Shown here: piece by piece, positions 1 to 16,363 of the stretch | Layout: the number at the start of each line of letters is the position of its first letter | How positions within the stretch are numbered: position 1 is the first letter of the stretch | Origin: Flavihumibacter fluminis | GTDB lineage: Bacteria; Bacteroidota; Bacteroidia; Chitinophagales; Chitinophagaceae | NCBI RefSeq assembly: GCF_021491375.1 | Contig: NZ_JAKEVY010000003.1 | Span: 744,001 to 808,000, forward strand | DNA: 64,000 bases | Direction of reading: 5' to 3' | Program-made: the position numbers and the translations under genes | Notes under the pieces: generated by a model | Told to the model about the DNA's origin: nothing | The model's database searches: none | Seen by the model: the letters and a program-made list of their open reading frames with translations, nothing else

Positions 1-1
1 G

Positions 2-229
2 AATGACTGGCAGATTCAGTATATCTCAAATAAAAAACCAACACCTGGAGAAAAGGGTCCGGCTATTAGTCGCGATTTCTGGAAAGTATTTCCTGAATTC
101 ACGTATCCCTCTACCAGCTGGAAACAGGGGCTTAATGAAGCTGGCTATTCGGTGCTGATGCTGCTAGCCTGGTTCCTTTTTTCCCTTTGGTTGCTGATTT
201 TCCGTTCACAAAAATTAAATGCCCTCTAA
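2..229 (+). CDS. ABC-2 type permease, DUF3526-like, C-terminal fragment
   Basis: Open reading frame entering from the left edge and ending at TAA 227-229, with about 75 residues visible. The visible part has a soluble stretch rich in aromatic residues and then one hydrophobic helix (around AGYSVLMLLAWFLFSLWLLI), followed by a short basic tail. The next gene starts 3 nt later and has the same overall design, a large extracytoplasmic loop and terminal helix, so this is most likely the first of two tandem permease subunits of an ABC exporter of the DUF3526 type. The ATPase would lie further left, outside the window. Family assignment is inferred from the C-terminus and the neighbour only. Confidence 0.6.
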   Translation, partial: NDWQIQYISNKKPTPGEKGPAISRDFWKVFPEFTYPSTSWKQGLNEAGYSVLMLLAWFLFSLWLLIFRSQKLNAL

Positions 230-232
230 ACG

Positions 233-1576
233 ATGTGGAAGCTTTGTATAAAAAACTTTGTTCGGACCTCCGTCGCCCAGGTAGGTATATCCGCCGTTTT
301 AATTGCTGGTATCATCAGTTTGCTGATTGGAAGACAGCACCTGGTTAAACAACAGGAAGCAGTTAAGCAAACAATGGTTGCTCAAAACGAGCACATTAAT
401 CGAAATAAAGAGTTTTTTTCCGCTGAACTTGGATTGCTGTTTTATTATCTGAAGTTCAGTCTTGTCAATGAGTTGGATCCCATAAATGGCCTGAGCATTG
501 GGCAGCGGGATGTAAATCCTTCTATCCAAAGTGTTACAATCCGGAACCTGGAGAACCAGCGTTATGATACTGACCTGTACAATCCGAATGTATTGCATGC
601 GGGGAATCTTGATCTGAGTTTTGTTTTACTCTACTTATTCCCATTATTAATCATAGCATCCTGTTATTCTGTTTTGTCGGCAGACCAGGAAGCCGGTACC
701 TGGAATATGACCCGGGTGCAAGCCCGAAAACCTGCTGCTTTACTTTGGAAAAGCATCGTAATCCGTATGGGCTTTATGTTCTCCTTATTTTTTGTTTTGA
801 TCGGCCTTGCTTTTGTTTTATTACCCTTATCCATTAATTACAGGATTTTGCTGTTTGTAGGAACAGGGATGGCTTATTTGTTATTTTGGTTTGGCCTTTG
901 TGCATTCATTATTTCATTGAATAAAAATTCCAGTACGAATGCAATGCTTTTATTGAGCTGCTGGATTTTGTTAGCCATCATTTTACCTGCAGCGGTTAAC
1001 AACTACCTGACCTCCCGCTATCCGGTACCTGAAGCATTATCCACGATGGTAGAACAACGGGAAGCCTATCACGAAAAATGGGATATGGAAAAGACGCCCA
1101 CATTGAAGGCTTTTTACAAGGTTTATCCGGAATATGAAAAATACGGATATCCGCAGGAAAACTTCAGCTGGCTTTGGTATTATGCAATGCAACATTTAGG
1201 TGATGAGGAGTCTAAAGAGCAAAGCGCATCCTTCATGAACAAATTGGCTAAACGGGAAGCTGCTGCCCGATCCATTTCTTTCTTTATACCAACCCTTCAT
1301 ACACAACATCAGTTTAATTCATTGGCTAAAGCCGGATTGGAAAATCATTTGTTGTTTCTGAAGCAAACTGCAAATTTTCATGAGTCTTTAAGAAAACAGG
1401 TTTACCCGCTGATCTTCGAAAACAGGCAGGTCGATGAAGTGAATTGGAAAGCGTTATCGGTTCAGAAATTTGAGGAAAATCAACATAATGATTGGGTGCC
1501 GGTCTTCCTTCCCTTCCTGGTTTTCATCCTGGGATTATTTGGAATCAGTTGGAAAAGATTGCATTCAATGGTATAA
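233..1576 (+). CDS. ABC-2 type transporter permease (DUF3526-like)
   Basis: A 447-residue integral membrane protein. It has one N-terminal helix (about residues 14-33), a large extracytoplasmic domain (about 34-125), a cluster of about four helices (128-260), a second large loop (260-415) and a final helix (about 420-440). This topology is typical of DUF3526 permeases of Bacteroidota ABC exporters. The ATG lies 3 nt after the stop of the preceding permease fragment, so the two are probably co-transcribed and form a heterodimer. Substrate is unknown. Such permeases often sit beside TonB-dependent receptors and metal-handling genes, and the next gene is a COG0523 metallochaperone GTPase, but that link is only contextual. 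Confidence 0.75.
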
Positions 1577-1592
1577 GTATAAAAATCTAATT

Positions 1593-2786
1593 ATGAATAA
1601 AAAATTACCGGTAACCGTGTTAAGTGGATTCCTGGGTGCAGGAAAAACTACGTTATTGAATCATGTTCTCAAAAATAAAGAAGGACTTAAAGTTGCTGTT
1701 ATTGTAAATGACATGAGCGAAGTGAATATTGACGCGCAATGGGTAAAGAATGAAGAGACACTTCATAAAACAGAAGAAAAGCTGGTCGAAATGAGTAATG
1801 GTTGTATTTGTTGCACGTTGAGGGAAGACTTACTGATTGAAGTTGAGAAGCTGGCTACGGAAAATCGTTTTGACTACCTGTTAATTGAAAGCACAGGCAT
1901 AAGTGAACCTTTACCGGTTGCTCAAACCTTCAGTTACCAGGATGAACAAAGTGGAATTGATCTGGGTCGCATTGCCCGGCTGGATACCCTGGTAACCGTA
2001 GTAGATGCCTTTAATTTTATACGGGATTATTCTACCATGGAAAGCCTGCATGACCGAAAGCTGACAGAGATGGCAGAAGATCAACGGACCATAGTAGATC
2101 TGCTTACCGATCAGGTTGAATTTGCTAATGTTATTATTCTTAATAAGACAGATCTTGTATCAGCAGACCAGGTAGGTGTCCTGCGTACTGTTTTGAAAAA
2201 ATTAAATCCAGGCGCCCGGGTTATTGAATCCAGTTTTGGTATTATCCCACTTAAAGAAATCTTAAATACCGGTTTGTTTGATTTCGAAAAAGCAAGTGAA
2301 ATGGAAAGCTGGAAAGAAGAAAGAGAAAAGGAACATACTCCCGAAACGGAAGAGTATGGAATCAGTTCTTTTGTATTCACAGCAAAAGCACCTTTTCATC
2401 CCGAACGTTTCTGGGCGTTCCTGAACGACCAATGGCCAATCAATATTATTCGGAGTAAAGGCGTATTCTGGATTGCAAGTCGCCCAGATGAAGCACTGAA
2501 CTGGAACCAGGCTGGTGGAAGTTTACGGGTGGATAAAGCCGGGTCCTGGTGGTGTTCCATGCCCTATGGGGAACGAATCCGGTATGCTGCTTTTGTTGAC
2601 AATCAGGCTGCCATTGAGCGTCGATGGGACAAAGCATTTGGGGACCGGTTCAATGAACTGGTAATAATAGGGCAGGAGCTGGACAGGCAGGTAGTGGAAG
2701 TACAATTACAATCCTGCTTATGTACTGAAAAAGAAATAGCAGCAATGAAAAACGGACAACGGTTTAAAGACCGGTTTCCGGTATAA
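1593..2786 (+). CDS. COG0523 GTPase, CobW/ZNG1-type metallochaperone
   Basis: A 397-residue G3E-family GTPase. The start at 1593 was chosen because it places the P-loop (GFLGAGKTT, about residues 12-20) at the N-terminus, as the family requires; an in-frame extension to 1470 would overlap the upstream gene. A GCICC metal-binding motif follows (Cys71, Cys73, Cys74), then an ESTG switch region, an NKTD base-recognition motif near residue 185 and a CobW C-terminal domain. A further Cys pair lies near the C-terminus (SCLC). COG0523 proteins use GTP hydrolysis to hand metal, usually Zn, to client proteins under limitation. The exact client is not evident here. It sits 16 nt after the ABC permease and 38 nt before the flavoprotein. 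Confidence 0.85.
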
Positions 2787-2824
2787 ATGGAACTTAAAAC
2801 ATTTTATCATCGTAAGAATAGAAT

Positions 2825-3718
2825 ATGAATAAAGCAATTGAAGTTGTAATAATAGGGGGATCCTATGCGGGTATGTCAGCAGCCATGGCACTCGGACGTT
2901 CATTAAGAGAAGTATTGGTTATCGATAATGGTCAGCCATGTAACAGGCAGACCCCGCATTCTCATAATTTCCTGACCAGGGATGGCGCCACCCCCGCATT
3001 TATCGCATCAGTTGCAAAAGAGCAGGTGCTGGAGTACCCAACTGTTCATTGGTTGGATGAAACCGTAAGCAGGGTAGAAGAAACCGATGATGGACTCCTG
3101 GTATATACCTCGGATGGTTTGCAATTTCATACCAAAAAACTCCTTCTGGCAACCGGAGTAAAGGATGAACTGTTATCCATTCCGGGTTTTGCAGTCTGTT
3201 GGGGCATCTCAGTTTTACACTGCCCATACTGTCATGGGTATGAGGTCAGAAATGAAACATTGGCTGTGTTATCCAATGGAGAAATGGCAATGGAATTTGT
3301 ACAGCTGATCCGGCAATGGTCATCCAGGATTCAATTGCTTACCAATGGAAATCCTATGCTTACACAACAGCAACTGGCTCAATTGGAAAAAGCCTGTATT
3401 CCGGTAAAGTCTTCACCCGTTAAGGAAATCTTACATAAGGATGGCTATCTCTATCAGGTTCAATTCGAAGACGGATCACTTATCCCTTTAAAAGCGCTCT
3501 TTTCAAGGGTTCCGTTTAGTCAAAGTCCATTGGTTCAGCAACTGGGACTTTCATTGAACGATCATGGCTATATTACCGTTACTCCTTTTCAGCAAACATC
3601 CCTCACAAATGTTTTTGCTGCAGGCGATTGTACAACTCCAATGCGTTCCGTTTCAACGGCAGTGGCTCAGGGAACCATGGCGGGTGCGGCTATCAACAAA
3701 TTTCTTTTAGAGTGGTAA
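2825..3718 (+). CDS. Thioredoxin reductase-like NAD(P)/FAD oxidoreductase
   Basis: A 297-residue pyridine nucleotide-disulfide oxidoreductase. The N-terminal FAD-binding Rossmann motif is IIGGSYAGMSAA (about residues 9-20). A redox-active CPYC pair lies at 133-136, followed by HGYE. The C-terminal FAD motif NVFAAGDCTT is near residue 265. The layout matches thioredoxin reductase-like proteins. The central NADPH-binding region (about 145-165) has no clear GxGxxA motif, which suggests a member of the variant TrxR-like group found in many soil bacteria rather than canonical TrxB. No thioredoxin gene adjoins it, so the partner is unknown. Confidence 0.8.
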   Translation: MNKAIEVVIIGGSYAGMSAAMALGRSLREVLVIDNGQPCNRQTPHSHNFLTRDGATPAFIASVAKEQVLEYPTVHWLDETVSRVEETDDGLLVYTSDGLQFHTKKLLLATGVKDELLSIPGFAVCWGISVLHCPYCHGYEVRNETLAVLSNGEMAMEFVQLIRQWSSRIQLLTNGNPMLTQQQLAQLEKACIPVKSSPVKEILHKDGYLYQVQFEDGSLIPLKALFSRVPFSQSPLVQQLGLSLNDHGYITVTPFQQTSLTNVFAAGDCTTPMRSVSTAVAQGTMAGAAINKFLLEW

Positions 3719-3721
3719 TTG

Positions 3722-3835
3722 TTATAAAACAAAATAAAGAACTACCAGGAAAACCAGCAGTACAATCAGAATACTTTTTGTAGGATATCCATCCTTTTCT
3801 TTTTCTTCTGACGGTTCATTTATTGGAATATTCAT
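3722..3835 (-). CDS. Small single-pass membrane protein (37 aa)
   Basis: An ORF below common length cut-offs: ATG at 3835 and TAA at 3724-3722. The first 18 residues are charged (NEPSEEKEKDGYP) and are followed by one hydrophobic helix (SILIVLLVFLVVLYFVL) that runs to the C-terminus. It is the last of three consecutive tiny membrane ORFs on this strand, beginning 30 nt after the stop of the second. The charged/hydrophobic partition and clustering support a real gene, but I know no family for it. An accessory subunit of a membrane complex is possible. Confidence 0.5.
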   Translation of the reverse strand: MNIPINEPSEEKEKDGYPTKSILIVLLVFLVVLYFVL

Positions 3836-3865
3836 CTGATACAAGTTTAGTTAATGGTATTAGCC

Positions 3866-3991
3866 CTAGTGAAACCATCCCAGCTTGAAATAGGCAATCC
3901 AGGAAAAGGCTACCAACAGACCGAAGACCAGTACGACCAGCAAAAAGTCTTTTAAAGTCGGGGGTTTATATTTGTAAGTTTGTTTTTTCAT
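3866..3991 (-). CDS. Small single-pass membrane protein (41 aa)
   Basis: ATG at 3991, stop TAG at 3868-3866. The N-terminus is strongly basic (KKQTYKYKPPTLK), followed by one helix (FLLVVLVFGLLVAFSWIAYF) and a short KLGWFH tail. By the positive-inside rule the N-terminus is cytoplasmic. It begins 8 nt after the stop of the preceding tiny ORF, which indicates an operon. The size and design recall small stabilising subunits such as KdpF or cytochrome oxidase accessory peptides, but no specific homology is recognised. Confidence 0.55.
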   Translation of the reverse strand: MKKQTYKYKPPTLKDFLLVVLVFGLLVAFSWIAYFKLGWFH

Positions 3992-3999
3992 GGTAGTGA

Positions 4000-4113
4000 C
4001 TAGTTAAAGAGAGCTTTACATACAAAGGCAAAAACTATCAGTGTGAGGTAAATGACATAAAGGATATGAATCGGGCGTACCTTGCGATTCAGGATTCGAA
4101 AATTCGTTTTCAT
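4000..4113 (-). CDS. Small single-pass membrane protein (37 aa)
   Basis: ATG at 4113, stop TAG at 4002-4000. The basic N-terminus (KTNFRILNRKVRP) is followed by one helix (IHILYVIYLTLIVFAFVC). It is the first of three tandem micro-ORFs and lies 194 nt downstream of the histidine kinase stop. That gap holds an inverted repeat and a GG-N10-GG element matching the pair found upstream of the kdp operon. Its role is unknown. Shared regulation with kdp is inferred from the repeated non-coding architecture. Confidence 0.5.
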   Translation of the reverse strand: MKTNFRILNRKVRPIHILYVIYLTLIVFAFVCKALFN

Positions 4114-4138
4114 ATATTCATTGTTTGAATACACTTAT

Positions 4139-4152
4139 CCAAACCGGATACC
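4139..4152 (-). promoter_or_regulatory. GG-N10-GG element, candidate degenerate -24/-12 promoter for the micro-ORF cluster
   Basis: On the minus strand the sequence reads GGTATCCGGTTTGG. The two GG pairs are separated by 10 nt, the spacing of sigma-54 promoters, although the -12 position has GG rather than GC. It lies 25 nt before the ATG at 4113. The element upstream of the kdp operon shares the pattern GG-N-ATC-N-G-NN-TTGG. Functional assignment is inference. Confidence 0.25.
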
Positions 4153-4252
4153 GGATTGATGAATATTATAAGAACTTGATTATAGATTTGATTATCAATA
4201 GTTTATTTATTCTGATAACAGTTGTAAAAGAGTTACCCAGAAATAGATCCCT

Positions 4253-4284
4253 TTCAAAATGACATTGCAATATGCCATTTTGAA
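4253..4284. promoter_or_regulatory. Inverted repeat TTCAAAATG-N14-CATTTTGAA, candidate enhancer/operator
   Basis: Perfect 9-bp arms at 4253-4261 and 4276-4284 with a 14-nt spacer. There is no T-tract after it on either strand in a terminator position, so a protein-binding site is more likely. The same arms with a 13-nt spacer occur at 12941-12971 upstream of the kdp operon. Confidence 0.45.
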
Positions 4285-4307
4285 AACCTGGTCCGGCTAG
4301 TAAGTGA

Positions 4308-6002
4308 TTAATTTGATTTGAATGGTAAGGTGAATCCAAACGTACTCCCTTCTCCCATGTTACTTTTTACCCAAATGGTACCACCCATTGCCTCTACCAT
4401 TTCTTTGCAGATGGCCAGCCCGATTCCTGATCCTTTTTTACTGGATTGTCCGGGTACCTGGTAAAATCGTTCGAAAATCCGTGCCTGTAAGGAAGCTTCA
4501 ATTCCAGGGCCGTGGTCTTTCACGGAAAACTCTATGGCAGCCGGAGTTTGTACAACCTGTAACAAAATGGTATCATCAGGCGGACTAAATTTTATCGCAT
4601 TTGTAAGCAGGTTGTTAAGTATCCAAACTATTTTATCCGGATCACCTTCCATTTCCGGAAGTGTGGTGGGAATGCTCTTTTCAATTTGAACTGTTTTCTC
4701 TTTTGCCGCCGCAGCCACTGCAGTTACTGATTCTTCTACTACTTTTGTAATAGTTACAGGCTGTTTCTTCAATTGAATCCTTCCTGTTTCAATCTGTGCC
4801 AGATTCAGTAATTCACTTAATATCCGAACCATTCTCTGGTTATCTGCACTCAGATTGTTTATTAACTCTTTCTGCTCAGGGGTTAATTTCCCAATTCGTT
4901 CATCGTTTAATAATTTAAGACTGAAATCAGATGCTGCCAACGGAGTTTTTAATTCATGTGAAATGGTTGCAATAAAGTTTGTTTTGGCTACATCCAATTC
5001 TTTGAACGAGGTTATGTTTTTAAGTACAATCAGTTTTGCACTTGTGCTTTCCTGTTCTATTTCGATGGTTTCTTTTAAGAAGTAATTTTCCCGGTTCTCA
5101 ATGATCACTTTAAACGGGTTATTGGTCTTTTCTTCCAATAGAAACCGAAATAAATCATTCCGGCTGGCAAGAATAGCTGATTTTACCCCAACTACCTCTT
5201 TTGCAGCTACGCCAAGTAACTGTAAGGCCTGCTCATTGGCAAATAATATGGTATCATTTTTATCAATTCCTATACTCGCATCTTTGAGACTGTTGATAAC
5301 CGCCTCTGCTCTTGATTTTTCAAATATGAGTTTGGCAACATTGCTGCTTTCAAAATATTCCAGTCGTTCTGCCATCTCATTAAAGGAGTTGGCTAATTGG
5401 CCAAATTCATCCTTTGACTGAATATAGATTCGGTGGTGGTAATTTTTTTGACTTATTTCATTGATTGCTTCTGTTAATTTGGTAATGGGATCAGTTAGAA
5501 CAGATGGAAAGTTTACTGAAAAAGTAAAACCTATGAGTAAAATTATAGCTACCGAAGTAATGATAATGGTTACCGCCTTTTCAGATGCAGCTTCGGAGTT
5601 TTCTGATTTTTGTTGAATAGCCTGCATATTGAGGGAAAGGATCTTTTGCAGTTGCTGCCGAAATAATCCTGCATCACTATTGTCGCCATTTTGTAGTTGT
5701 ACAAAAGCATTTCGTAATAATGCGGTCGCTTCTTTCTCTCCGTCTTCAGTGATATTGGTTTCCTGTTTTTGCAGATAAAATTCAATGGAGTCTGCATAGC
5801 CAGGGTTTCCCAGTTGTAAACTGTCAAACGCAATCTGCATCCGGTGCGCATATTGCAGCGACTCATAATTGGCCGTTAGTATATTGTTGGTTTGTTGCCG
5901 GAGTTTGACCAGGTAAAAAATCCCTACCCCTCCCGAGGACATTACCAGAAAGAAAAGGAAAATAGTTCCTAATCGGATTTTATTTTTAACTGTTCCTATC
6001 AT
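4308..6002 (-). CDS. Sensor histidine kinase with HAMP and PAS domains, coupled to the KdpD fragment
   Basis: A 564-residue membrane histidine kinase. It has TM1 (about 12-33), a periplasmic helical sensor region (34-143), TM2 (144-164), HAMP (about 165-220), PAS (about 232-335) and HisKA with the H-box FIATISHELKTPL (His349). The HATPase has an N-box (NNLLTNAIKFSP), a G1 box (KDHGPGIE) and a G2 box (GSGIGLAICKEM). Its ATG shares one base with the stop of the upstream kdpD-like gene (TGATG), so the two are translationally coupled. I infer that the KdpD/Usp protein acts in trans on this kinase, replacing the fused KdpD architecture. No response regulator adjoins it; the NtrC-type regulator at 12977-14293 is the best candidate partner. 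Confidence 0.88.
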   Translation of the reverse strand: MIGTVKNKIRLGTIFLFFLVMSSGGVGIFYLVKLRQQTNNILTANYESLQYAHRMQIAFDSLQLGNPGYADSIEFYLQKQETNITEDGEKEATALLRNAFVQLQNGDNSDAGLFRQQLQKILSLNMQAIQQKSENSEAASEKAVTIIITSVAIILLIGFTFSVNFPSVLTDPITKLTEAINEISQKNYHHRIYIQSKDEFGQLANSFNEMAERLEYFESSNVAKLIFEKSRAEAVINSLKDASIGIDKNDTILFANEQALQLLGVAAKEVVGVKSAILASRNDLFRFLLEEKTNNPFKVIIENRENYFLKETIEIEQESTSAKLIVLKNITSFKELDVAKTNFIATISHELKTPLAASDFSLKLLNDERIGKLTPEQKELINNLSADNQRMVRILSELLNLAQIETGRIQLKKQPVTITKVVEESVTAVAAAAKEKTVQIEKSIPTTLPEMEGDPDKIVWILNNLLTNAIKFSPPDDTILLQVVQTPAAIEFSVKDHGPGIEASLQARIFERFYQVPGQSSKKGSGIGLAICKEMVEAMGGTIWVKSNMGEGSTFGFTLPFKSN

Positions 6003-7135
6003 CAGGATAATATGACTAAATCAACATCATTTTTTGTCAATGTTTTTAAGAGCTGATTAAAAACACCCGTTTTTAAAATAATCTGCCATAGTTTGAGATG
6101 GGGCTTTCCAATACACACGGTTGTAATTTGGCGCTCTTCTATAGTTTTAAGAATGGCCGCCGAAATATCGTCCTGTTTGTACTGAATGATTTCAGCACCC
6201 AGTTCAGTGGCGTTTTTAAAGTTATTGATTAAATGCCGTTGTATATCCAGGGGGATTTTATCCGGCGCCTCCCTGGCTGTTTGTACATAGAGCACAAACC
6301 ACTGACTGTTGTAATAGGATGCCAGCCTGGCTGTTTTTCGGATGATCCTTTGTGCTATTTCATGGTTACTGGAAACACAGGCCAGGAAACGTTCGTGCCG
6401 GAAGGGATTTTTTTTATATTCAATAGAATATTCTACTTTTCTTTCCACCTGTCCAGCTACCTCCTTTAGTGCCAGTTCCCTTAACTGAAGGATTTTATCC
6501 GGCTGGAAAAAATTGGTTAATGCCTGTTGAACTTTACTATGATCATATATTTTGCCTTCCCGCAGGCGACGTATCAATTCATCGGCCGGCAAATCAATAT
6601 TTACAACTTCATCCGCCACCTGCAGTATTTTATCCGGAACCCGTTCCTGCACTTCGATCCCAGTAATACCTTTTACATCTTCATTTATACTTTCAATATG
6701 CTGAATGTTTATTGCTGAAATTACATTGATTCCAGCATTTAATACATCCAGCACATCCTGCCACCGTTTTTCATTTTTACTTCCTGGAATATTGGAATGG
6801 GCCAGTTCATCTATCAATACCACTTCCGGATGAACTAAGAGGATTGCCTGCACGTCCAGTTCTTCCAACCGCTTTCCTTTATAGAAAACCTCACGCCTTG
6901 GTATCAGAGGTAAGCCTTCAACCAGGGCGTGAGTTTCTTTTCTGTTATGCGTTTCGATATAACCAATCCGCACATCCACACCATCCTTCAGTAATTGATG
7001 TGCTTCCTGCAACATGCGATAGGTTTTTCCCACCCCCGCACTCATGCCAATATAAACTTTGAGTTTACCCTTTTCATTTCGGGAACCACCTATTTTTTGT
7101 AACCATTCTTCCGGGCTATGTTGCTTTTCAGTCAT
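6002..7135 (-). CDS. kdpD: KdpD N-terminal sensor plus Usp domain, without a kinase module
   Basis: A 377-residue soluble protein corresponding to the cytoplasmic N-terminal half of KdpD. The KdpD sensor domain (about 25-235) has a Walker A motif (GMSAGVGKT, about 30-38) and a Walker B motif (VVLIDELAHSN). A universal stress protein-like domain (about 245-377) follows. The DUF4118 membrane region and the HisKA/HATPase domains of full-length KdpD (about 890 aa) are absent. The protein ends normally at the TGA shared with the next gene, so this is a domain-split arrangement and not a truncation by mutation. In E. coli KdpD this region binds ATP and ligands and modulates kinase output. Here it probably modulates the co-translated kinase at 4308-6002. 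It lies 25 nt after the porin gene in the kdp operon. Confidence 0.88.
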   Translation of the reverse strand: MTEKQHSPEEWLQKIGGSRNEKGKLKVYIGMSAGVGKTYRMLQEAHQLLKDGVDVRIGYIETHNRKETHALVEGLPLIPRREVFYKGKRLEELDVQAILLVHPEVVLIDELAHSNIPGSKNEKRWQDVLDVLNAGINVISAINIQHIESINEDVKGITGIEVQERVPDKILQVADEVVNIDLPADELIRRLREGKIYDHSKVQQALTNFFQPDKILQLRELALKEVAGQVERKVEYSIEYKKNPFRHERFLACVSSNHEIAQRIIRKTARLASYYNSQWFVLYVQTAREAPDKIPLDIQRHLINNFKNATELGAEIIQYKQDDISAAILKTIEERQITTVCIGKPHLKLWQIILKTGVFNQLLKTLTKNDVDLVILS

Positions 7136-7160
7136 ACAATACTACACAGGTATAATGATT

Positions 7161-8252
7161 TTAAAATCCAATGGCTGTTGAGAACGTAATGGCGGTATTA
7201 TTCCTGCTATTCGCTCCTTCTTTTTCAAAAATTTCATCTTTGCTGTTAAGATGACGAAGTTCCAATCTCAGCAGTACATTAGTTAAAGGAGAATAATCAA
7301 CATTTACCGAAGCTCCGGTAGTCTTAAAACCATTAGGTGTTCCGGTTCCAATTATTACTCCATTTGCGTCACTGAAATATTCACCCCTGAAGGCAAACGC
7401 CCAATTAGAACTTGGAGTAATACGTAAAATGGCTACAGGTGTATACCAGGTATTCAACTCTTTATCCTTTGGAGTTTGCTGCTCCAGGCCAATATCCAGA
7501 CTGGTAATCAAGCCAATTTTTTCAGACAATTGAAAAACTCCATACAAATTGTTATGATATCTCCAGAGCCTGGCACTATCCGGTTTGTCTGTTCCTATGA
7601 AAGTACTGTAGTTTAGCGTCACTTTATCAGATGGTTTGTACGTAAGCTGAGTTCCCCAGCTCAATAGTGAATTTCCTTCTACTCTTGTAATACGCTGCCA
7701 ACCATTCAATGCCAGTGCTGCCAACTGCAATTTCCCATCGGCGCTGGCATAGGAAAGTTTAGCACCGCTTTCAAAATAGGGTGTATTTTCGGCTACCATA
7801 CTTCTGGTAAGGGTCCAGTTGTCTTTTCCGATAGCGGATTCGAAGCCAATATGCGAGGGTATGATCCCGATGTCTAACCAGATATCATTTTTGGCGCTCA
7901 GCTTATATCCTGCATTTGCCTCAAAAATATTTTTTAGCACGCCAGGTTCGGCCGCATAGTTGGCATTCATATAGCTACCAACACCAATTGCCAGATTTGC
8001 ACGGGTTCGTTCTGTAGCATATGCTGCTTTTACAAATCCAACATTCAGATTAAATTCATTGTGACGATTAAAATTGTACAAAAACCCCGGCCTGTTATTA
8101 TTGTCCGGCCGGTTGAAGTCATAACTGTAATAACCTTCCACGTATCCGCTAATTGTCAGCGGATTGGTGGTTTGCTTTGTCTGTTGAGTACTGTCCTGCG
8201 CATGAGCAGCCAGGGTAGTTAAGGCGGCTGCCATCAAAACTGTCTTTTTCAT
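7161..8252 (-). CDS. Outer-membrane beta-barrel porin in the kdp operon
   Basis: A 363-residue protein with a cleavable signal peptide (MKKTVLMAAALTTLAAHAQ). The mature part has alternating beta-strand patterns throughout, many aromatic residues and a terminal phenylalanine (STAIGF), the usual outer-membrane insertion signal. It resembles the putative beta-barrel porin-2 (BBP2) type found next to kdpC in Bacteroidota. It starts 7 nt after kdpC and ends 25 nt before kdpD, so it is embedded in the K+ operon. A role in passage of K+ across the outer membrane under limitation is inferred from position only. Confidence 0.78.
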   Translation of the reverse strand: MKKTVLMAAALTTLAAHAQDSTQQTKQTTNPLTISGYVEGYYSYDFNRPDNNNRPGFLYNFNRHNEFNLNVGFVKAAYATERTRANLAIGVGSYMNANYAAEPGVLKNIFEANAGYKLSAKNDIWLDIGIIPSHIGFESAIGKDNWTLTRSMVAENTPYFESGAKLSYASADGKLQLAALALNGWQRITRVEGNSLLSWGTQLTYKPSDKVTLNYSTFIGTDKPDSARLWRYHNNLYGVFQLSEKIGLITSLDIGLEQQTPKDKELNTWYTPVAILRITPSSNWAFAFRGEYFSDANGVIIGTGTPNGFKTTGASVNVDYSPLTNVLLRLELRHLNSKDEIFEKEGANSRNNTAITFSTAIGF

Positions 8253-8259
8253 TTATGAT

Positions 8260-8814
8260 TTATTTTAAAGCATCCAGTGCTATATTCAATTTGAGCACAT
8301 GTACGAGGTCTGGCCCAATAGGATTCGTTTCAATATGATTGTTAACGAGGTCTTCTACTTTGTTTTTATCCAGCTTTCTTATCCGTGCTACCCGATCCAC
8401 CTGTATCAAAGCGGCAGCGGGGGATATATGTGGATCAAGTCCACTGCCGGATGCTGTTACCAGTTCAGCCGGTATTTGCTCTTTTGTGATGGCAGGATTA
8501 TGAACGAGGAAACTGTCAATTCTTTCCTGAACCAACGCAAGGTAATCCGGATTGGAAGGACCTTTATTACTTCCACCAGAACCACTTGCATTATAGTTAA
8601 CCGCTGATGGACGCCCCCAGAAATACCGGTCCTTCGTAAATTGCTGACCCAGTTTTTCATACCCGACAACTTTCCCGTTTACCTTAATGGTTTCGCCATC
8701 ACCTCCTCCAGGCGACATTTTACCAATAACAGTCACTATTCCGAAATAGATCCCGCAACAAAGTACCAGCATTACCGCTGTCATTTTTACCGAGGGTAAT
8801 AGATATTTTTTCAT
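8260..8814 (-). CDS. kdpC: K+-transporting ATPase subunit C
   Basis: A 184-residue KdpC. It has one N-terminal transmembrane helix (about 10-31) followed by a periplasmic domain. Family hallmarks visible include DRYFWGRPSAVNYN, the SGSGGSN loop, the PAELVTASGSGLDPHIS segment and a C-terminal IGPDLVHVLKLNIALD motif. KdpC stabilises the KdpA-KdpB complex and raises ATP affinity. Length is normal (about 190 aa). It begins 19 nt after kdpB in the operon. Confidence 0.95.
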   Translation of the reverse strand: MKKYLLPSVKMTAVMLVLCCGIYFGIVTVIGKMSPGGGDGETIKVNGKVVGYEKLGQQFTKDRYFWGRPSAVNYNASGSGGSNKGPSNPDYLALVQERIDSFLVHNPAITKEQIPAELVTASGSGLDPHISPAAALIQVDRVARIRKLDKNKVEDLVNNHIETNPIGPDLVHVLKLNIALDALK

Positions 8815-8833
8815 TTCTGCTTATTTCTTTTAG

Positions 8834-10894
8834 TTAGATAAATAGGCCGATGATCACATCAATCAGCTTGATTCCGAGGAAGGGCACAAGTACCCCGCCA
8901 AACCCGTATATCAGCAGGTTTCTGCGAAGGAGCGCAGAAGCGCCAATTGGTTTATAGGCCACTCCCCGCAAAGCCAGCGGAATCAGTATGGGTATAATTA
9001 TCGCATTGAAAATAATGGCGGATAAAATAGCTGTCTCCGGACTTTTCAGGTTCATGATGTTCAATCCTTGTAAGGATGGTATAGAAGCCACAAACAATGC
9101 CGGAACAATAGCAAAATATTTCGCCACATCGTTGGCAATAGAAAAGGTTGTCAATGTACCCCTGGTAATTAAGAGTTGTTTTCCAATTTCCACTACTTCA
9201 ATCAGTTTGGTTGGATCGTTGTCGAGGTCAACCATGTTGCCGGCTTCTTTGGCCGCCTGCGTTCCACTGTTCATGGCTACACCAACATCTGCCTGGGCCA
9301 ATGCAGGAGCATCATTGGTACCATCACCCATCATGGCTACCAGTTTCCCTTTAGCCTGCTCTTCTTTGATATAATTCATTTTGTCCTCAGGTTTCGCTTC
9401 TGCAATGAAATCATCCACCCCAGCTTTTTCAGCAATGAAGCGCGCAGTGAGTGGGTTATCACCCGTTACCATTACTGTTTTTACGCCCATTTTGCGAAGT
9501 CGTTCAAAGCGGTCCTGCATGCCCGGTTTAATGATATCCTGCAGTTCAATTACTCCACGAACAATAGTATTTTCAGCTACCACCAATGGGGTGCCGCCAT
9601 TTTTAGCTATACTGTTTACCTGTTCTGTTACAGCATCAGGAAACTGACCCCCATTTTTAAGGATGTAATTCCGGATACTATCCTGCGCGCCTTTTCGTAT
9701 CCGCCTGCCATCCGGGAGATTTACACCACTGCTTCGGGTTTCTGCTGTGAAACCAATAAATTCCATTCCGTTGCTACGATGCATGTTAATGCCTTTCTGA
9801 CCCGCCAGTTCCACAATGGATTTTCCTTCCGGGGTTTCATCTGCCAGTGAACTTAATGCAGCGAGCTCTATGAATTTTTTCTCCTCATTGCTATCAACTG
9901 CATAAAAATTAGTGGCCTTCCGGTTTCCGATGGTGATAGTACCTGTTTTGTCCAGCAACAAGGTATCCACATCGCCAGCGGTTTCAACTGCCTTGCCGCT
10001 TTTCGCTATTACATTAGCCCTTAATGCCCTGTCCATACCTGCAATTCCAATAGCAGATAACAATCCGCCAATAGTAGTAGGAATCAGGCAAACAAAGAGA
10101 GAGATAAAGGCTGCGATGGTTATCGGCGTATTGGCATAATCAGCAAATGGTTTAAGGGTAACGCATACAATTATGAATACAATTGTGAAAGATGCAAGCA
10201 GAATGGTTAACGCAATTTCATTCGGTGTTTTCTGCCGGTTGGCACCTTCCACCAGTGCAATCATTTTATCCAGGAAGGTTTCGCCTGGCGCTGTGGTTAC
10301 CTGAACAATAATCCGGTCAGATAATACTTTTGTTCCTCCCGTTACAGAAGATTTATCACCCCCTGCTTCCCGGATTACAGGAGCACTTTCACCCGTTATG
10401 GCACTTTCATCAATGGTAGCAATTCCTTCGATGATTTCTCCATCCATTGGAATCGTATCTCCGGCTTCACAAACAAACCGGTCATTAAGTCTCAACTGTG
10501 CGGAGGATACAACCCGGATTTCTTCCGCAAGACTTCCTCCGCCTACGGGTGATACCAGTTTTGCAGGTGTATCCTGCCTCGTTTTTCGTAAGGTATCAGC
10601 CTGGGCCTTTCCTCTCGCTTCTGCAATGGCTTCTGCAAAATTGGCAAACAGAAGGGTAATGAAAAGGATGATAAAAACAGCCAGATTATACCCCAATGAA
10701 CCCTGTGCTGTATCACCGGTGAATGCGGTATACAGTACTACAAAGAACATGATGAGGGTTCCGATTTCAACGGTAAACATTACCGGATTTTTAATCATCA
10801 ATTTTGGATGAAGTTTGCTGAACGACTGTTTCAAAGCCGTATTCACCAGCGCGGGTTCAAACAATCCAATGGATTTCTTATTGTGAACAGACAT
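8834..10894 (-). CDS. kdpB: K+-transporting P-type ATPase subunit B
   Basis: A 686-residue catalytic subunit of the high-affinity K+ pump. The phosphorylation motif DKTGTIT has its aspartate at residue 315. The actuator TGES loop is at 167-170, and its Ser corresponds to the regulatory serine known in E. coli KdpB. The [13 protein letters not shown] helix is near 271-283, and [10 protein letters not shown] marks the hinge. It hydrolyses ATP to drive K+ import through KdpA. Length and motif order are complete. It starts 21 nt after kdpA. Confidence 0.97.
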
Positions 10895-10915
10895 ATTATT
10901 TCGTTTAATCTACTA

Positions 10916-12631
10916 TTAGCGAATGGAAAAATATTCAGCCAGGGGGCCCAGGGTCAGTGCCGGAAAAAAGGCAAGGGCTGCAATGATTACAATTACAGCA
11001 AATGTCATTATTCCAAAAGTGTAACTGTCACTCCTCAGGGTACCTGCAGTTTCAGGAATGTACTTCTTCTGTGCCAGTAATCCAGCAATCGCCAGGGGGC
11101 CGATGATGGGCAGGTAGCGTCCAAGTATCAATACAAATCCGGTGGATACATTCCAGAATATATTATTGTCTCCCAATCCTTCAAATCCACTCCCGTTATT
11201 GGCAGCGGCTGAACTGTACTCATACAACATTTCTGAAAATCCATGAGCGCCCGGATTGTTCAGCCAGGCTGCTGGTTGCACTGCCCAATTGGCTTCGGGA
11301 TAATACACTAAAATATAAGAAGAAAGGGCTGTTCCCACCAGGATAATAAATGGATGTAATAAGGCAATCAGGGCCGCAATTTTCATTTCCCTGGCTTCTA
11401 TTTTACGTCCCAGGAATTCAGGTGTTCGTCCCACCATCAAACCGGATATAAAGACGGCTATGATCAGGAAGATGAAAAAATTCAGAAAGCCTACACCTAC
11501 TCCACCATAAAAGGCATTGATCATCATATCCAGGATTTGCATGGCTCCGCTTAGTGGTGTATGGCTGTCGTGCATGCTGTTCACAGATCCGTTTGAGGTA
11601 GCCGTAGTGGCAATACCCCAAAGCACAGAAGCTGCCGGACCAAAACGAACTTCCTTGCCTTCCATACTACCGGTTGGTTGCTGGAGTCCCAGTTTTTCCA
11701 GTTCCGGATTACCATTCAGTTCTGACCAGATCGATGTTGAAAGTATGAGCAGAAATCCAAGCGTCATCACAGAAAATATGACCCGGGATAATTTGGGCCG
11801 CTTCAGATAGTAACCAAAGGCAAAGACCAATGCAATTGGAATCAGCAGAATAGAAACGGTTTCAACTGCATTGGTAAAGTAATTGGGGTTTTCAAGCGGG
11901 TGGGATGAGTTTACTCCAAAATAACCACCCCCATTGGTTCCCAACTGCTTGATGGCAATCATGCCGGCTGCAGGACCGCGACTAACAGATACACTGTCTC
12001 CCTGCAGGGTTACAATACTGTCTTTCCCTTTCCAGGAACTGGGTGTGCCGTTAAATAGCAAAAGAACCGCCACCACCAGCGAAAGAGGCAATAAAATCCG
12101 GGTAATGCTTTGTGTAAAGAATACCCAGAAATTACCCAGTTTATCGGTTACTTTATCCCGTAATGCCCGGAATAACACGAATAATGCAGCAATACCAGTG
12201 GCAGCCGTAACAAACTGAAGAAATGCAATCACAAATATCTGAGTCAGATACGTTAATCCGCTTTCTCCGCTATAATGTTGCAGGTTACAATTTACTAAAA
12301 AGGAAATGGCGGTGTTAAAGGCCAGATCCGGTGTTTGTGATGGATTGCCATCAGGGTTAAGAAATAAACTCCCTTGTGAAATCAACAATACAAATGAATA
12401 AACAAACCATACAAGATTGATGGTAAGCAAGGCTTTTAAATGTTGTTTCCAGGTCATTTCTTCCTCCGGATTGATTCCGCAGATCCGGTAGACCAGGCGC
12501 TCTAAGGGAGCCATTAGATTCCAAATGGATTTTTCACCACGAAGCCAGCGGGCAATGCTCCTGCCAAGAAGTATTGCTAAAAGAATGGTCAGGCCATAAA
12601 TCAACACTACGCCAAGAAGTTCTTTGTTCAT
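10916..12631 (-). CDS. kdpA: K+-transporting ATPase subunit A
   Basis: A 571-residue K+-translocating subunit related to the Trk/Ktr channel superfamily, with about ten hydrophobic helices. Selectivity-filter loops are visible as NCNLQHYSGE, TNGGGYFGVNSSHP and ANNGSGFEGLGDN, and TSNGSVNSMHDSHTPL forms a fourth pore loop. Length matches the family (about 560 aa). It begins 12 nt after kdpF, at an ATG. Confidence 0.97.
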   Translation of the reverse strand: MNKELLGVVLIYGLTILLAILLGRSIARWLRGEKSIWNLMAPLERLVYRICGINPEEEMTWKQHLKALLTINLVWFVYSFVLLISQGSLFLNPDGNPSQTPDLAFNTAISFLVNCNLQHYSGESGLTYLTQIFVIAFLQFVTAATGIAALFVLFRALRDKVTDKLGNFWVFFTQSITRILLPLSLVVAVLLLFNGTPSSWKGKDSIVTLQGDSVSVSRGPAAGMIAIKQLGTNGGGYFGVNSSHPLENPNYFTNAVETVSILLIPIALVFAFGYYLKRPKLSRVIFSVMTLGFLLILSTSIWSELNGNPELEKLGLQQPTGSMEGKEVRFGPAASVLWGIATTATSNGSVNSMHDSHTPLSGAMQILDMMINAFYGGVGVGFLNFFIFLIIAVFISGLMVGRTPEFLGRKIEAREMKIAALIALLHPFIILVGTALSSYILVYYPEANWAVQPAAWLNNPGAHGFSEMLYEYSSAAANNGSGFEGLGDNNIFWNVSTGFVLILGRYLPIIGPLAIAGLLAQKKYIPETAGTLRSDSYTFGIMTFAVIVIIAALAFFPALTLGPLAEYFSIR

Positions 12632-12643
12632 AGTCAGTTGTTG

Positions 12644-12724
12644 TTAGAATTTTTCCGGTTTGATCAATACATACAGCAGGTAAATAAATACCAGCACAGA
12701 TAGTACAAATAAGATGCTCATCAT
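12644..12724 (-). CDS. kdpF: K+-transporting ATPase subunit F
   Basis: A 26-residue peptide read directly from the sequence: ATG at 12724, or 12721 if the second Met is used, and TAA at 12646-12644. One hydrophobic helix (ILFVLSVLVFIYLLYVLI) is followed by the KPEKF tail, the signature of KdpF. KdpF stabilises the KdpABC complex in the membrane. Its position directly before kdpA is the canonical kdpFABC order, so the call is firm despite its size. Confidence 0.9.
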   Translation of the reverse strand: MMSILFVLSVLVFIYLLYVLIKPEKF

Positions 12725-12729
12725 GATGA

Positions 12730-12816
12730 TTAGATTTTTTCGAAGAAATCAATGGAGTTGAAAAAAAGCCAGAAACAGAGCAGTCCGGCTACCAGCAGTA
12801 AAATGGATAATAGCAT
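12730..12816 (-). CDS. 28-residue membrane micropeptide preceding kdpF
   Basis: ATG at 12816, TAA at 12732-12730. The product is one hydrophobic helix (LLSILLLVAGLLCFWLFF) with a short polar tail ending in FFEKI. It stops 5 nt before the kdpF start, so it would be the first cistron of the kdp operon. It resembles KdpF in size and layout but lacks KPEKF. It may be a second small subunit or a leader peptide. No family is recognised. Confidence 0.5.
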   Translation of the reverse strand: MLLSILLLVAGLLCFWLFFNSIDFFEKI

Positions 12817-12848
12817 ACGATTCAGAATTGTTGATTGAGCTCCATCAG

Positions 12849-12863
12849 CCAATTCCGATGCCA
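12849..12863 (-). promoter_or_regulatory. Candidate sigma-54 (-24/-12) promoter of the kdp operon
   Basis: Minus-strand sequence TGGCATCGGAATTGG, compared with the consensus TGGCAC-N5-TTGC. The GG at -24 and the TTG of the -12 box match with correct spacing, but the last base is G instead of C. It lies 32 nt before the first ATG of the operon (12816). No TAnnTTTG box was found between here and that ATG. An NtrC-type activator gene (with GAFTGA) lies immediately upstream. Confidence 0.35.
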
Positions 12864-12940
12864 TATCCCAGTTCCAAATTATTCAACAGAATATCAATCA
12901 ATTAAAAAAGGGAAAATTTTATTGATTGCTTGTACGAACG

Positions 12941-12971
12941 TTCAAAATGAAAAGCTTTTTTTCATTTTGAA
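12941..12971. promoter_or_regulatory. Inverted repeat TTCAAAATG-N13-CATTTTGAA, candidate activator site for kdp
   Basis: Perfect 9-bp arms at 12941-12949 and 12963-12971. The spacer is also partly self-complementary (AAAAGCTTTTT). The centre is about 94 bp upstream of the candidate -24 element, a normal distance for a sigma-54 enhancer site. It begins 5 nt past the stop of the NtrC-type regulator gene. The sequence after it on the minus strand (CGTTCGTAC) is not a T-tract, so it is a poor terminator. Confidence 0.45.
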
Positions 12972-12976
12972 AAAAT

Positions 12977-14293
12977 TTAGTGGAGTTGGTATTCTTCCAT
13001 CTTCCGGTAAAGCGTAGTCAGGCCGATACCCAGTAATTTGGCCGTTTCGGTTTTATTGTGGTTACATTGCTCCAGGACTTTCTGTATATGGGCTTTTTCC
13101 ATGCTTGCCAGATCAACGCCTACTGCATCGGGTTGTGAGGGTAGGGAAGAAGGTTCCAGTTCGGTACCGTCTGTCAGGATAACACTTCGTTCTATACAAT
13201 TTTTTAATTCCCGGATATTACCTTTCCAGTTCATTTTACATAACCTGGTAAGATAGGCGTCTGAAATAAACGTTACTTTTTTGTTCATCCTGGCTGCAAA
13301 GACCTGAATGAAATGATTGGCAAGCAGAGGGATGTCTTCAGTGCGGTCTCTCAGTGGTGGTAATTCTATCTGAAATACAGACAAGCGATAATAGAGGTCC
13401 TCCCTGAATCGGCCGGCTTCCATTTCTTTCTGAAGATCCCGGTTGGTGGCAGCGATCAGACGGATATTCACTTTCCTGACCTGGTTGTCACCCAACCGGT
13501 AAAATTCTCCTGTTTCCAGTACTCTTAACAGTTTGGCCTGTAAATCAATCGCCATTTCACCAATTTCATCCAGGAAAAGCGTTCCTTTGTCAGCCTCTTC
13601 CAGCAATCCTTTACCATCTTTTAAGGCGCCGGTAAATGCTCCGGCTTTATGACCAAATAATTCATTCTCCAGTAATTCGCGTGAAAATGCTGAACAGTTG
13701 ATTGCCACAAAGGAATTGTCCTTTCGGTTACTTTCTGCATGGATGGCCTGGGCAAATACTTCTTTACCTGTTCCTGTTTCCCCGGTAAGTAACACGGTGG
13801 TTTCTGTTATGGCTACCCGCTGAGCAGCTGCAATAGCAAATTTGATTCGCTGAGAATTACCCAGTATGGAACTAAAGGAATAGCGGGCGCTGATTTTATC
13901 CTGCAACTCCTTTACTTTAATTTGCAGTTGTTGCTTTTCAATGGCGCGCTGAAGCAGCGGAATGATTTTATTATTATCCTCCCCTTTGGTAATATAATCA
14001 AAGGCCCCGTTTTTCATCGCCTGGATTCCATCCTGAATGGTACCAAATGCGGTCAGAACAATTATCTCGGTTGCAGGAAAATGCTTTTTTAACCAGGAAG
14101 TGAATTCAACTCCGTTTCCATCGGGTAATTTCACATCGCAGATAAGTACAGCAAAGGGTTCCTTTGCCAGCATTTCTTTCGCTGTTTTTAAAGTAGTAGC
14201 TTCTTTTACGACATATCCTTCCAATGCCAGGATCCTGGCTAGTAATCCCCTGAGTTTTACCTCATCATCTATTATCAGTATTGCTGGGTTCAC
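12977..14293 (-). CDS. NtrC-family sigma-54-dependent response regulator
   Basis: A 438-residue regulator. The receiver domain (1-115) has phospho-acceptor Asp53 (LICDVKLPDG). The AAA+ domain has Walker A (GETGTGKE, 171-178) and the sigma-54 contact loop GAFTGA (218-223), plus a Walker B near GTLFLDEIGEM. The C-terminal Fis-type HTH spans about 410-434. The start is GTG at 14293, overlapping the kup stop as GTGA, so translation is coupled to kup. No kinase adjoins it. The HAMP-PAS kinase at the end of the kdp operon is a plausible partner. Inferred role: activation of the downstream kdp operon and possibly the micro-ORF cluster. Confidence 0.9.
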   Translation of the reverse strand: MNPAILIIDDEVKLRGLLARILALEGYVVKEATTLKTAKEMLAKEPFAVLICDVKLPDGNGVEFTSWLKKHFPATEIIVLTAFGTIQDGIQAMKNGAFDYITKGEDNNKIIPLLQRAIEKQQLQIKVKELQDKISARYSFSSILGNSQRIKFAIAAAQRVAITETTVLLTGETGTGKEVFAQAIHAESNRKDNSFVAINCSAFSRELLENELFGHKAGAFTGALKDGKGLLEEADKGTLFLDEIGEMAIDLQAKLLRVLETGEFYRLGDNQVRKVNIRLIAATNRDLQKEMEAGRFREDLYYRLSVFQIELPPLRDRTEDIPLLANHFIQVFAARMNKKVTFISDAYLTRLCKMNWKGNIRELKNCIERSVILTDGTELEPSSLPSQPDAVGVDLASMEKAHIQKVLEQCNHNKTETAKLLGIGLTTLYRKMEEYQLH

Positions 14294-16254
14294 TCCTGTA
14301 TGCGTTTAATTTTTATATCCACCGGCGCTACAATCAATGGGAATTTTTCTATTACAACTTTTCCGGGATCCAATCCGAATCCCTTTTCTTCCGAGAGGCT
14401 GATTTCTTTCAGGAGAAAATGAAACTTCATGACAATCTTTTCCCAGAAACTTAATTCATTGTCCTGGCTCAGGTATTTTTCCATAACGATAAACTGGAAA
14501 TCCCCTGCAATATTGTTTTTACCCAGGCTTTCATAGCGACTGGTTACGTTTACTTCGTGATTGATGACCAGGTCTTCTACCACCTTCCGGAAGAAGAGAT
14601 CAATTTTCGGTTCAACGCGAAAGCCTAACCGAAAATCGATACGAATTATATCGTTTGGAATGATATGGGTTACCTTATACTCCGCTGTGTAAGGATCATC
14701 CAACGTATCCACATGTACAAACCAGTATATATCAGCCCGCTTGGGTTTTTTAAAGAGGATGGAATAAATGATTTTATGTTCGATTTCTTTCTCAATGTCT
14801 GCACTGGTCATATAAACAAGGTGCGTAGCATACCTGGGAACCGTTTTATCATTGCTCAACTCCTGGATCTGTGGTACGTATTGATCCAGCCGGACAAATT
14901 CCACATACCTGTTTTTAATCTTACGGGCCCGGTACCAGTCGTACATGATGAAGAATAAGCCACCTCCTACAATTAAAGTTACATATCCGCCATGTGTAAA
15001 TTTTTCCATATTGGCCCACAAGAATGAAATTTCAATACTCAGGTAGACCAATAGATATAAATAAATGAGCGATGGTTTTGCTCTCTTTTGTACGAGATAG
15101 TTCGCAAACAGAATAGAAGTGGCGATCATACAAAGTGTAATTGCCAGGCCATATGCAGCTTCCATATTGGAAGCTTTTTTAAAGTAAAGCACAATCCCGA
15201 TGCATCCTGCAAACAATAAAAGATTAATGGCTGGTATAAAGAGTTGTCCCCTTGCTTCTGTTGGATATACAATTTTAAATTTTGGCCATAAATTCAATCG
15301 CATGGATTCACTGATCAGGGTAAAGGATCCCGAAATAAGGGCCTGGCTCGCAATGATGGCTGCCGCCGTTGCAATGGTAATTCCGAAATAGAGAAACCAT
15401 CCTGGCATAACCCCATAAAAAGGATTAAAGCCGGTTTCCAGCATGGCTGTAGTTATTACCGATCCTTTATGATTGGATAAAAGCCAGGCGCCCTGTCCCA
15501 GATAATTAAGGATCAGGCAGGATTTTACCAGGATCCAGGAATACCGGATATTCCATTTGCCGCAATGCCCGAGATCAGAATACAGCGCTTCTGCCCCTGT
15601 GGTACAAAGAAACACACCTCCAAGAATATAAAAACCTTTTGGATAGGTCACCAGGAGGTGGATACCATAGTAGGGATTGAAGGCTTTAAATACCACCCAT
15701 TCATCCGTAAAGTGAAGCACCCCCAGTATAGCCAGCATGGCAAACCAGACCGACATTACCGGTCCAAAGAATTTTCCAATAAAGGCAGTTCCGAATTGCT
15801 GAAGAAAAAATAAGACGGTAAGAATGCCAATTACAATATAAATGATGGTGGTTTGGGAAATACTGGAGAAAGCAGGCACCTGCTTTAATCCTTCAATGGC
15901 AGAAGTCACGGATATCGGAGGCGTAATCATTCCATCTGCCAGCAGAGCAGCACCTCCGATCATAGCCGGAATGACCAACCATTTTCGTCTGCGTCTTACC
16001 AGTGCAAACAGGGAGAATACACCACCTTCACCCCGGTTATCTGCCTGCAGTGTTAATACTACATATTTAATAGTGGTTTGTAATGTTAAGGTCCAGATGA
16101 TAAGCGAGAGCGCACCTACTACCAACTCTTCTGTAATTTGCTTTCCGCTGGTAATGGCATTTAATACATATAGTGGAGATGTTCCGATGTCGCCATAAAT
16201 AATGCCCAGGGCGATTAAAATACCCGCTGCGCTGAGTTTCTGGTGTGATCCCAT
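14290..16254 (-). CDS. kup: KUP-family K+ transporter
   Basis: A 654-residue K+/H+ symporter of the KUP/HAK/KT family. The N-terminal signature is GIIYGDIGTSPLYVL (about 18-32), followed by EGGVFSLFALVRR and about 12 transmembrane helices up to residue 440. A soluble C-terminal domain of about 200 residues follows. KUP proteins are constitutive medium-affinity K+ importers, which complements the inducible Kdp pump here. It is divergent from the DUF4118 kinase gene (109 nt between start codons) and coupled to the NtrC-type regulator downstream. Confidence 0.93.
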   Translation of the reverse strand: MGSHQKLSAAGILIALGIIYGDIGTSPLYVLNAITSGKQITEELVVGALSLIIWTLTLQTTIKYVVLTLQADNRGEGGVFSLFALVRRRRKWLVIPAMIGGAALLADGMITPPISVTSAIEGLKQVPAFSSISQTTIIYIVIGILTVLFFLQQFGTAFIGKFFGPVMSVWFAMLAILGVLHFTDEWVVFKAFNPYYGIHLLVTYPKGFYILGGVFLCTTGAEALYSDLGHCGKWNIRYSWILVKSCLILNYLGQGAWLLSNHKGSVITTAMLETGFNPFYGVMPGWFLYFGITIATAAAIIASQALISGSFTLISESMRLNLWPKFKIVYPTEARGQLFIPAINLLLFAGCIGIVLYFKKASNMEAAYGLAITLCMIATSILFANYLVQKRAKPSLIYLYLLVYLSIEISFLWANMEKFTHGGYVTLIVGGGLFFIMYDWYRARKIKNRYVEFVRLDQYVPQIQELSNDKTVPRYATHLVYMTSADIEKEIEHKIIYSILFKKPKRADIYWFVHVDTLDDPYTAEYKVTHIIPNDIIRIDFRLGFRVEPKIDLFFRKVVEDLVINHEVNVTSRYESLGKNNIAGDFQFIVMEKYLSQDNELSFWEKIVMKFHFLLKEISLSEEKGFGLDPGKVVIEKFPLIVAPVDIKIKRIQE

Positions 16255-16342: not shown

Positions 16343-16363
16343 ACGAGGCCTGTACTTTTGCTC

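Follow-up and report, generated by a model that had tools for sequence, protein, structure and literature searches.

A probable second kdp-type promoter module serving membrane micropeptide genes in the kdp cluster of Flavihumibacter fluminis

The kdp cluster of Flavihumibacter fluminis is located in a 64,000-nucleotide stretch of contig NZ_JAKEVY010000003.1 (positions 744,001 to 808,000), here called the window. The order on the minus strand is kup, a gene for an NtrC-type regulator, a palindromic site, a promoter, the micropeptide gene K27, kdpF, kdpA, kdpB, kdpC, an OmpL-like porin gene, the gene of a KdpD sensor protein and a histidine kinase gene, followed by a second site, a second promoter and the small open reading frames (ORFs) P1, P2 and possibly P3. 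We consider it probable that the latter part is a second kdp-type output, in which a duplicate of the kdp switch within the same cluster drives P1 and P2, and perhaps P3. The sequence elements, their conservation, spacing and genome-wide uniqueness, the conservation of the ORFs and the linkage to transporter genes were observed directly. The most economical explanation is a potassium (K+) regulon with two promoters under the control of an enhancer-binding protein and sigma-54.

The two sites are palindromes on the minus strand, located at 12941..12971 in front of kdp and at 4253..4284. An earlier note, made from the sequence alone, had stated that the kdp palindrome arms recur at 4253-4284. 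The arms are indeed exact copies, and 100 shuffles of the window gave no such palindrome. A search of the whole genome (4,710,176 bases) revealed exactly two copies, both at kdp, and the reading as a shared regulon thus survived the objection that the note itself had foreseen, many random copies of the palindrome. When up to three mismatches were allowed, places with 0–2 mismatches were again only these two palindromes (spacers 14 and 13). All other places had three mismatches and numbered 11 with spacer 14 and 6 with spacer 13, compared with 4 and 3 for a control using the backward pattern. Both palindromes are located 3' of the end of a minus-strand gene and 5' of a GG-N10-GG element and micro-ORFs.

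Each palindrome arm is a dyad in itself, TTCA-N3-TGAA. The kdp site holds two of these 20 bp apart, and the site of the second module holds two imperfect ones 21 bp apart, with a counterpart in Flavihumibacter sp. UBA7668 (locus L197). In 61 kdp upstream regions, all seven pairs of good dyads (at most one mismatch per dyad) lying less than 40 bp apart were spaced 20–22 bp. The palindrome is best read as an activator site, at which a pair of TTCA-N3-TGAA dyads with a spacing of about two helical turns would be bound. This identity and that of the sigma-54-type promoters described below are assigned here as the best reading of elements that the earlier note had not named as such.

Downstream of each site is a candidate sigma-54-type promoter. 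That of kdp, TGGCATCGGAATTGGC at 12848..12863, lies 94 bp from the centre of its site, inside a distance cluster found in relatives. That of the second module, CGGTATCCGGTTTGGA at 4138..4153, has its -24 GG at 4152-4151 and its -12 GG at 4140-4139, and elements of the same class lie 115–122 bp from the sites of relatives. Counting on the sequence confirmed the GG-N10-GG element previously reported at 4139-4152, which is on the minus strand at a distance of 117 bp from the centre of the palindrome. Both elements agree with the sigma-54 consensus (GG at -24, G(C) at -12 and 10 bp between) in having GG-N10-G. In the window the -12 G is followed by another G, and among 48 elements of relatives the following base is G in 26, C in 19 and A or T in three. 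The string that had been described as shared with the kdp element, GGYATCNNNNTTGG, does occur in the window only at 4139-4152 and 12849-12862, but as evidence by itself it is weak, with at least two occurrences of this type in 6 of 100 window shuffles. Transcription is predicted to start near 12837 for kdp and, judged from the spacing, near 4127 for the second module.

Related loci were compared in two steps. In the family, kdpA is present in 80 of 147 genomes, the window counted. The first sample consisted of 79 relatives with a kdpA match, from which 60 loci were fetched and 19 left, several of these being on short contigs or having partial genes. Wider sampling kept the best 80 of 333, and 149 loci then collapsed to 140 distinct ones. 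Leaders that were too short were dropped, giving 139 leaders for the ORF counts (without L139) and 137 for the site counts (without L114, L139 and L165).

A permissive site scan returned many chance matches and was discarded in favour of a stricter scan with controls. In this, a site and promoter pair precedes kdpA in 30 of 61 loci, whereas none of the five shuffled sets had such a pair in any of its 61 loci, and over whole loci there were 39 pairs versus 1–6 in the shuffles. Of the 137 kdp leaders, 66 have a strong site, versus 7–12 in five shuffles and 5 in the reversed sequence. Within 300 bp of those 66 sites there were 60 promoter-like matches, 48 of them (in 48 leaders) 85–130 bp downstream. 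These 48 distances are clustered, with 10 at 94–98 bp, 35 at 115–122 bp and three elsewhere, and the controls, which have fewer sites, gave 0 at 85–130 bp. About two helical turns separate the clusters, and each contains one of the modules of the window (94 and 116 bp by script). NtrC-family regulators bind tandem sites roughly 80–150 bp upstream of the promoter, and the candidate sites are placed 94 and 116–117 bp upstream of the predicted promoters. These results suggest that control of kdp by an NtrC-type regulator and sigma-54-type promoters, as judged from sequence, is common in this family.

Further arrangements of these elements were seen in single loci. Locus L079 has two sites, at -270 and +7401 from kdpA. 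The second differs by one base and comes with an identical promoter element, and neither a longer micro-ORF nor a large ORF was recognised after it. In L035, about +9420 from kdpA, a site and a sigma-54-like element are located directly 5' of a porin-like (bbp2-related) gene, which suggests a K+-regulated porin. In L041 a single site, about -406 from kdpA, is located between divergent kdpD-kinase genes and kdpA and has a promoter-like element on each side. The genome of the window has two loci with the sigma-54 DNA-binding domain Sigma54_DBD (G000:C39:78235-78708 and G000:C32:42797-43270, L205 and L206), in open frames of 495 and 478 amino acids (aa). A second RpoN might be linked to the occurrence of GG at -12.

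The second promoter is followed by the first micro-ORF, which begins at ATG 4113, as had been proposed. Three membrane micropeptides had been suggested. P1 and P2 are supported by homologues and conservation, and P3 has one weak partner only. P1 (4000..4113, minus strand) encodes 37 aa with one predicted transmembrane (TM) helix. A GTG start at 4134 was rejected because it is upstream of the predicted transcription start. A profile was built from 11 kdp-leader ORFs of relatives, with one same-genus member (L201) and without the window or L197. It found the window P1 with E=2.8e-7, in fifteenth place among 4,673 small hydrophobic ORFs, and the 14 higher ranks were the loci of the 11 seeds, two further kdp-leader ORFs (L178 and L050) and L197. 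In the 147 family genomes there were 10 matches, of which eight precede kdpA (seven of them seeds), one is the window and one, in L251 (E=1.1e-4), is an ORF adjacent to and convergent with kup, the sole P1 match outside a kdp cluster.

P2 (3866..3991, minus strand) encodes 41 aa, also with one predicted TM helix, and matches a same-genus kdp-leader ORF (L200) with phmmer at 6.8e-10. A P2 profile without a same-genus member gave E=0.39 for the window copy, and 1.8e-8 after L200 was added. The family, as defined here, has a basic N-terminus, one helix, a conserved K near the C-terminal end (the invariant K36 of our alignment) and a place in a K+-transporter cluster. The window copy has all of these, being in the kdp cluster about 7 kb from kdpA. 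A search of the 147 family genomes, with no kup-linked sequence among the seeds, returned 15 matches. Of these, 11 are no more than 4 kb from kdpA, one is the window, and the other three all abut kup. A second profile, with at most 19 candidates per genome scored, gave 22 matches in 21 of 396 genomes of the order. Eleven are located up to about 0.7 kb before kdpA, five right after kup, four right before kup, one is the window and one (L234) is near neither transporter gene. Thus 20 of 22 are beside kdpA or kup, as are 14 of the 15 non-seed matches (eight at kdpA, six at kup, one at neither). L230 and L231 have, one after the other, the regulator, the site, a weaker promoter-like element, P2 and kup. 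KdpFABC and Kup are unrelated machines, and the linkage of P2 to one or the other was therefore unexpected.

The possible third ORF, P3 (3722..3835, minus strand), would encode 37 aa, and its end overlaps a terminator-like hairpin at 3761-3741. In the family search only its own window match was convincing; the best other match (E 0.0026) lies inside a 404-aa frame. Direct tblastn of P1–P3 against the first 60 loci gave nothing convincing, and profiles were needed. No Pfam or NCBIfam model matched P1, P2, P3 or K27 at its cut-off, and matches below the cut-offs were disregarded (P2 to CcmI at 0.094 and to DUF6404 at 0.033, P3 to RAMP4 at 0.025). Profile searches of PDB, made with the alignments of P2 and of K27, returned no useful match.

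The whole second module is found again in L197, where the kinase gene is followed by the site, a promoter element 116 bp on, and homologues of P1 and P2. The DNA between the module elements has diverged more between L197 and the window than the elements have. The two P1 copies share 15 of 37 residues (nonsynonymous divergence dN 0.46, synonymous divergence dS 1.17), and the P2 copies 30 of 39 compared residues (dN 0.16, dS 2.19), these Nei-Gojobori values being rough for such short sequences. The idea of one regulon that includes small membrane proteins is supported by the module in UBA7668, by the site-promoter pair conserved at preferred spacings 5' of kdpA, and by the homology of P1 and P2 to micro-ORFs in kdp leaders or next to kup.

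The first promoter is followed by a micropeptide of its own, K27, at 12730..12816 on the minus strand (28 aa here, about 27 aa in general), with homologues upstream of kdpF. With a start at 12864, within the promoter, this ORF would be 44 aa long. That start was rejected because it is upstream of the predicted transcription start, and homologues place the start at the internal ATG 12816. K27 is located upstream of kdpF in 130 of the 139 kdp leaders, and KdpF is found in 138. Among the 147 family genomes K27 is present in 69, all of them among the 80 with kdpA, and in 68 within 4 kb of kdpA; the only match further away is G005:C28:81093-81170. The 26-aa kdpF itself (12644..12724, minus strand) matches PF09604 (3.9e-9) and TIGR02115 (4.9e-8), models to which P1, P2, P3 and K27 have no match. 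Peptides of the K27, P1 and P2 types were seen in leaders in which a kdpF is present as well.

The proposed activator is encoded at 12977..14293 (minus strand) and has a receiver domain (PF00072), a sigma-54 interaction AAA+ domain (PF00158) and a Fis-type helix-turn-helix (PF02954), as in the NtrC family. A regulator-like gene, 53–63% identical where present, was found in 47 of the 60 fetched kdp loci. It is likely that this regulator binds both sites, given its domain type, its neighbourhood and the uniqueness of the sites. The arrangement is not of the KdpD/KdpE type, as the KdpD domain and the kinase are encoded by separate genes and the neighbouring regulator is NtrC-type. The KdpD sensor-domain protein without kinase (6002..7135, minus strand) matches PF02702 (2.2e-91) and, at 364 bits and below the cut-off of 550, NF038185 (KdpD_non_kinase); its gene is present in nine of 15 genomes of the genus. 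The histidine kinase (4308..6002, minus strand) has HAMP, PAS, HisKA and HATPase domains by Pfam, and would be the partner of the NtrC-type regulator.

The following scheme is what we infer for the signal, for phosphorylation and DNA binding, for transcription and translation, and for what the peptides do. Low K+ would be sensed by the split KdpD and kinase pair, which would phosphorylate the NtrC-type regulator. Dimers of the regulator would then occupy the two tandem dyads of each palindrome, and looping of the DNA would let them activate sigma-54 RNA polymerase at the -24/-12 promoters, which lie downstream at about 94 or 117 bp. The first promoter would give K27-kdpF-kdpA-B-C-porin-kdpD-kinase and the second, just after the kinase gene, P1 and P2 (perhaps P3). 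By analogy with KdpF, P1 and P2 are most likely accessory subunits or modulators of K+ uptake, since they are single-helix peptides of families found in kdp leaders or beside kup. A bolder proposal, which we think slightly more apt to be wrong than right, is that P1 and P2, with K27, form an unnamed set of K+-uptake micropeptides, of which P2 (perhaps P1) is exchangeable between the Kdp P-type ATPase and Kup. The peptides would tune the transporters or report to a shared regulator, and in Flavihumibacter a sigma-54 promoter of their own would separate the peptide dose from the pump dose.

The palindromes could instead be intrinsic terminators of the kinase and regulator genes, alike as common terminator sequences. 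They lie 23 and 5 bases past a stop codon and both fold well as minus-strand RNA, and 4286-4251 was called terminator-like with a broken T-rich tail in a scan of 3600-4400. Furthermore, in L231 the promoter-proximal dyad of the site before P2-kup is extended to a stem, CCCTTTCA-N3-TGAAAGGG, followed by a T-run, and a double role as site and as terminator of the upstream gene is therefore possible in relatives. However, the genome has two copies only, both at kdp, the kdp site has no T-run after it on the minus strand, and the sigma-54-type element is found at preferred distances from the sites. The sites of L041 and L046 are moreover located between divergent recognised genes, with no such gene ending there. 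A role as terminators only was rejected on these grounds, and we regard this explanation as unlikely. It is quite unlikely that the micro-ORFs are untranslated and the module yields a small RNA or an untranslated leader. The ORFs are very short and match no family above cut-off, the predicted 5' leader is only about 14 nucleotides, and P3 overlaps a terminator-like hairpin. Against this, other loci encode homologues of P1 and P2 at the protein level, the amino acids of P2 are conserved with synonymous sites near saturation, and 1-20000 contained no Rfam match at gathering scores. In size and hydrophobicity P1 and P2 also resemble toxic peptides with a single helix, DinQ and TimP among them. 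Nevertheless, the relatives of P2 mostly adjoin K+ transporter genes and the one non-kdp match of P1 adjoins kup, so that membrane toxins or general stress peptides located near kdp by chance are very unlikely.

Several observations weigh against a second kdp-type output. Both palindromes fold as minus-strand RNA hairpins (-17.9 kcal/mol, z -3.2, and -11.4, z -4.0). Looser dyad pairs in the 137 leaders occur at many spacings, with a peak at 19–21 bp. Under the scoring used, a strong site was not found in 71 of the 137 leaders, and 18 of the 66 leaders with one have no promoter element at 85–130 bp. The site and promoter counts are not independent trials, because the first 61 loci were used to shape that scoring and all the loci are related to one another. 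The shuffles, moreover, offered fewer sites to test. The P1 and P2 seeds came mostly from kdp leaders, which favours kdp-linked matches. In the genus, no such module was seen over 1,600 bases past the kinase gene in seven other loci (L198–L204), and P1 profile matches were found in three of 15 genomes. The one reciprocal partner of P3, the first ORF after the kdp-leader promoter of L137, is weak (E about 0.0015), and no counterpart of P3 was found in L197.

The remaining genes of the cluster, all on the minus strand, are the K+ transporter gene kup (14290..16254, PF02705), which overlaps the regulator gene by four bases, kdpA (10916..12631, PF03814), kdpB (8834..10894, assigned from its translation and the orthologous gene between kdpA and kdpC of relatives), kdpC (8260..8814, PF02669) and the OmpL-like beta-barrel porin gene bbp2 (7161..8252, PF07642). 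On the opposite strand, genes for a CobW-type GTPase (1470-2786) and a flavoprotein like pyridine-nucleotide-disulphide oxidoreductases (2825-3718) lie next to the second module.

In Escherichia coli, KdpD senses K+ limitation and controls kdpFABC; its sensor domain is fused to the kinase, and its partner KdpE is OmpR-type and acts at a sigma-70 promoter. The window differs in having an NtrC-type regulator and a sigma-54-type promoter. KdpF is, like P1 and P2, a tiny single-helix peptide, and is encoded with the pump; the window peptides P1, P2, P3 and K27 differ from it in lacking a KdpF match. Small membrane modulators of the AcrZ type are likewise single-helix peptides, which act on a large transporter; the likeness of P1 and P2 to them is one of build, and a role of this kind for P1 and P2 is putative. 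In Desulfovibrio vulgaris Hildenborough we take DVU3334 to be itself of sigma-54 type. The accessible text on DVU3334–3339 (PMC3333781) describes a response regulator that targets its own kdpFABC operon, a sensor divided between two proteins, a K+-sensor/UspA protein and a kinase, and NtrC-family members as 22 of 29 DNA-binding response regulators. The regulator on its own kdp operon and the split sensor resemble the window, but that text makes no mention of a second, micropeptide promoter (PMC3333781). The words 'kdp' and 'potassium' were not found in the accessible main text of a 2025 survey of sigma-54 regulons (PMC12316311), and searches of open-licence PMC articles returned no title or abstract opening on these micropeptides or on kdp being controlled by sigma-54 in Bacteroidota. 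For Desulfovibrio it is already published that a response regulator with a split sensor controls kdp. What seems to be new are the families of micropeptides, their link to Kdp as well as to Kup, and the separate promoter.

The finding turns unannotated micro-ORFs into candidate subunits of potassium transport, within a two-promoter regulon that is clear and testable. Micro-ORFs of this kind occur in many genomes of the family and also in relatives, Mucilaginibacter among them. If one peptide does serve both Kdp and Kup, this would indicate that bacterial K+ uptake has a control point in common.
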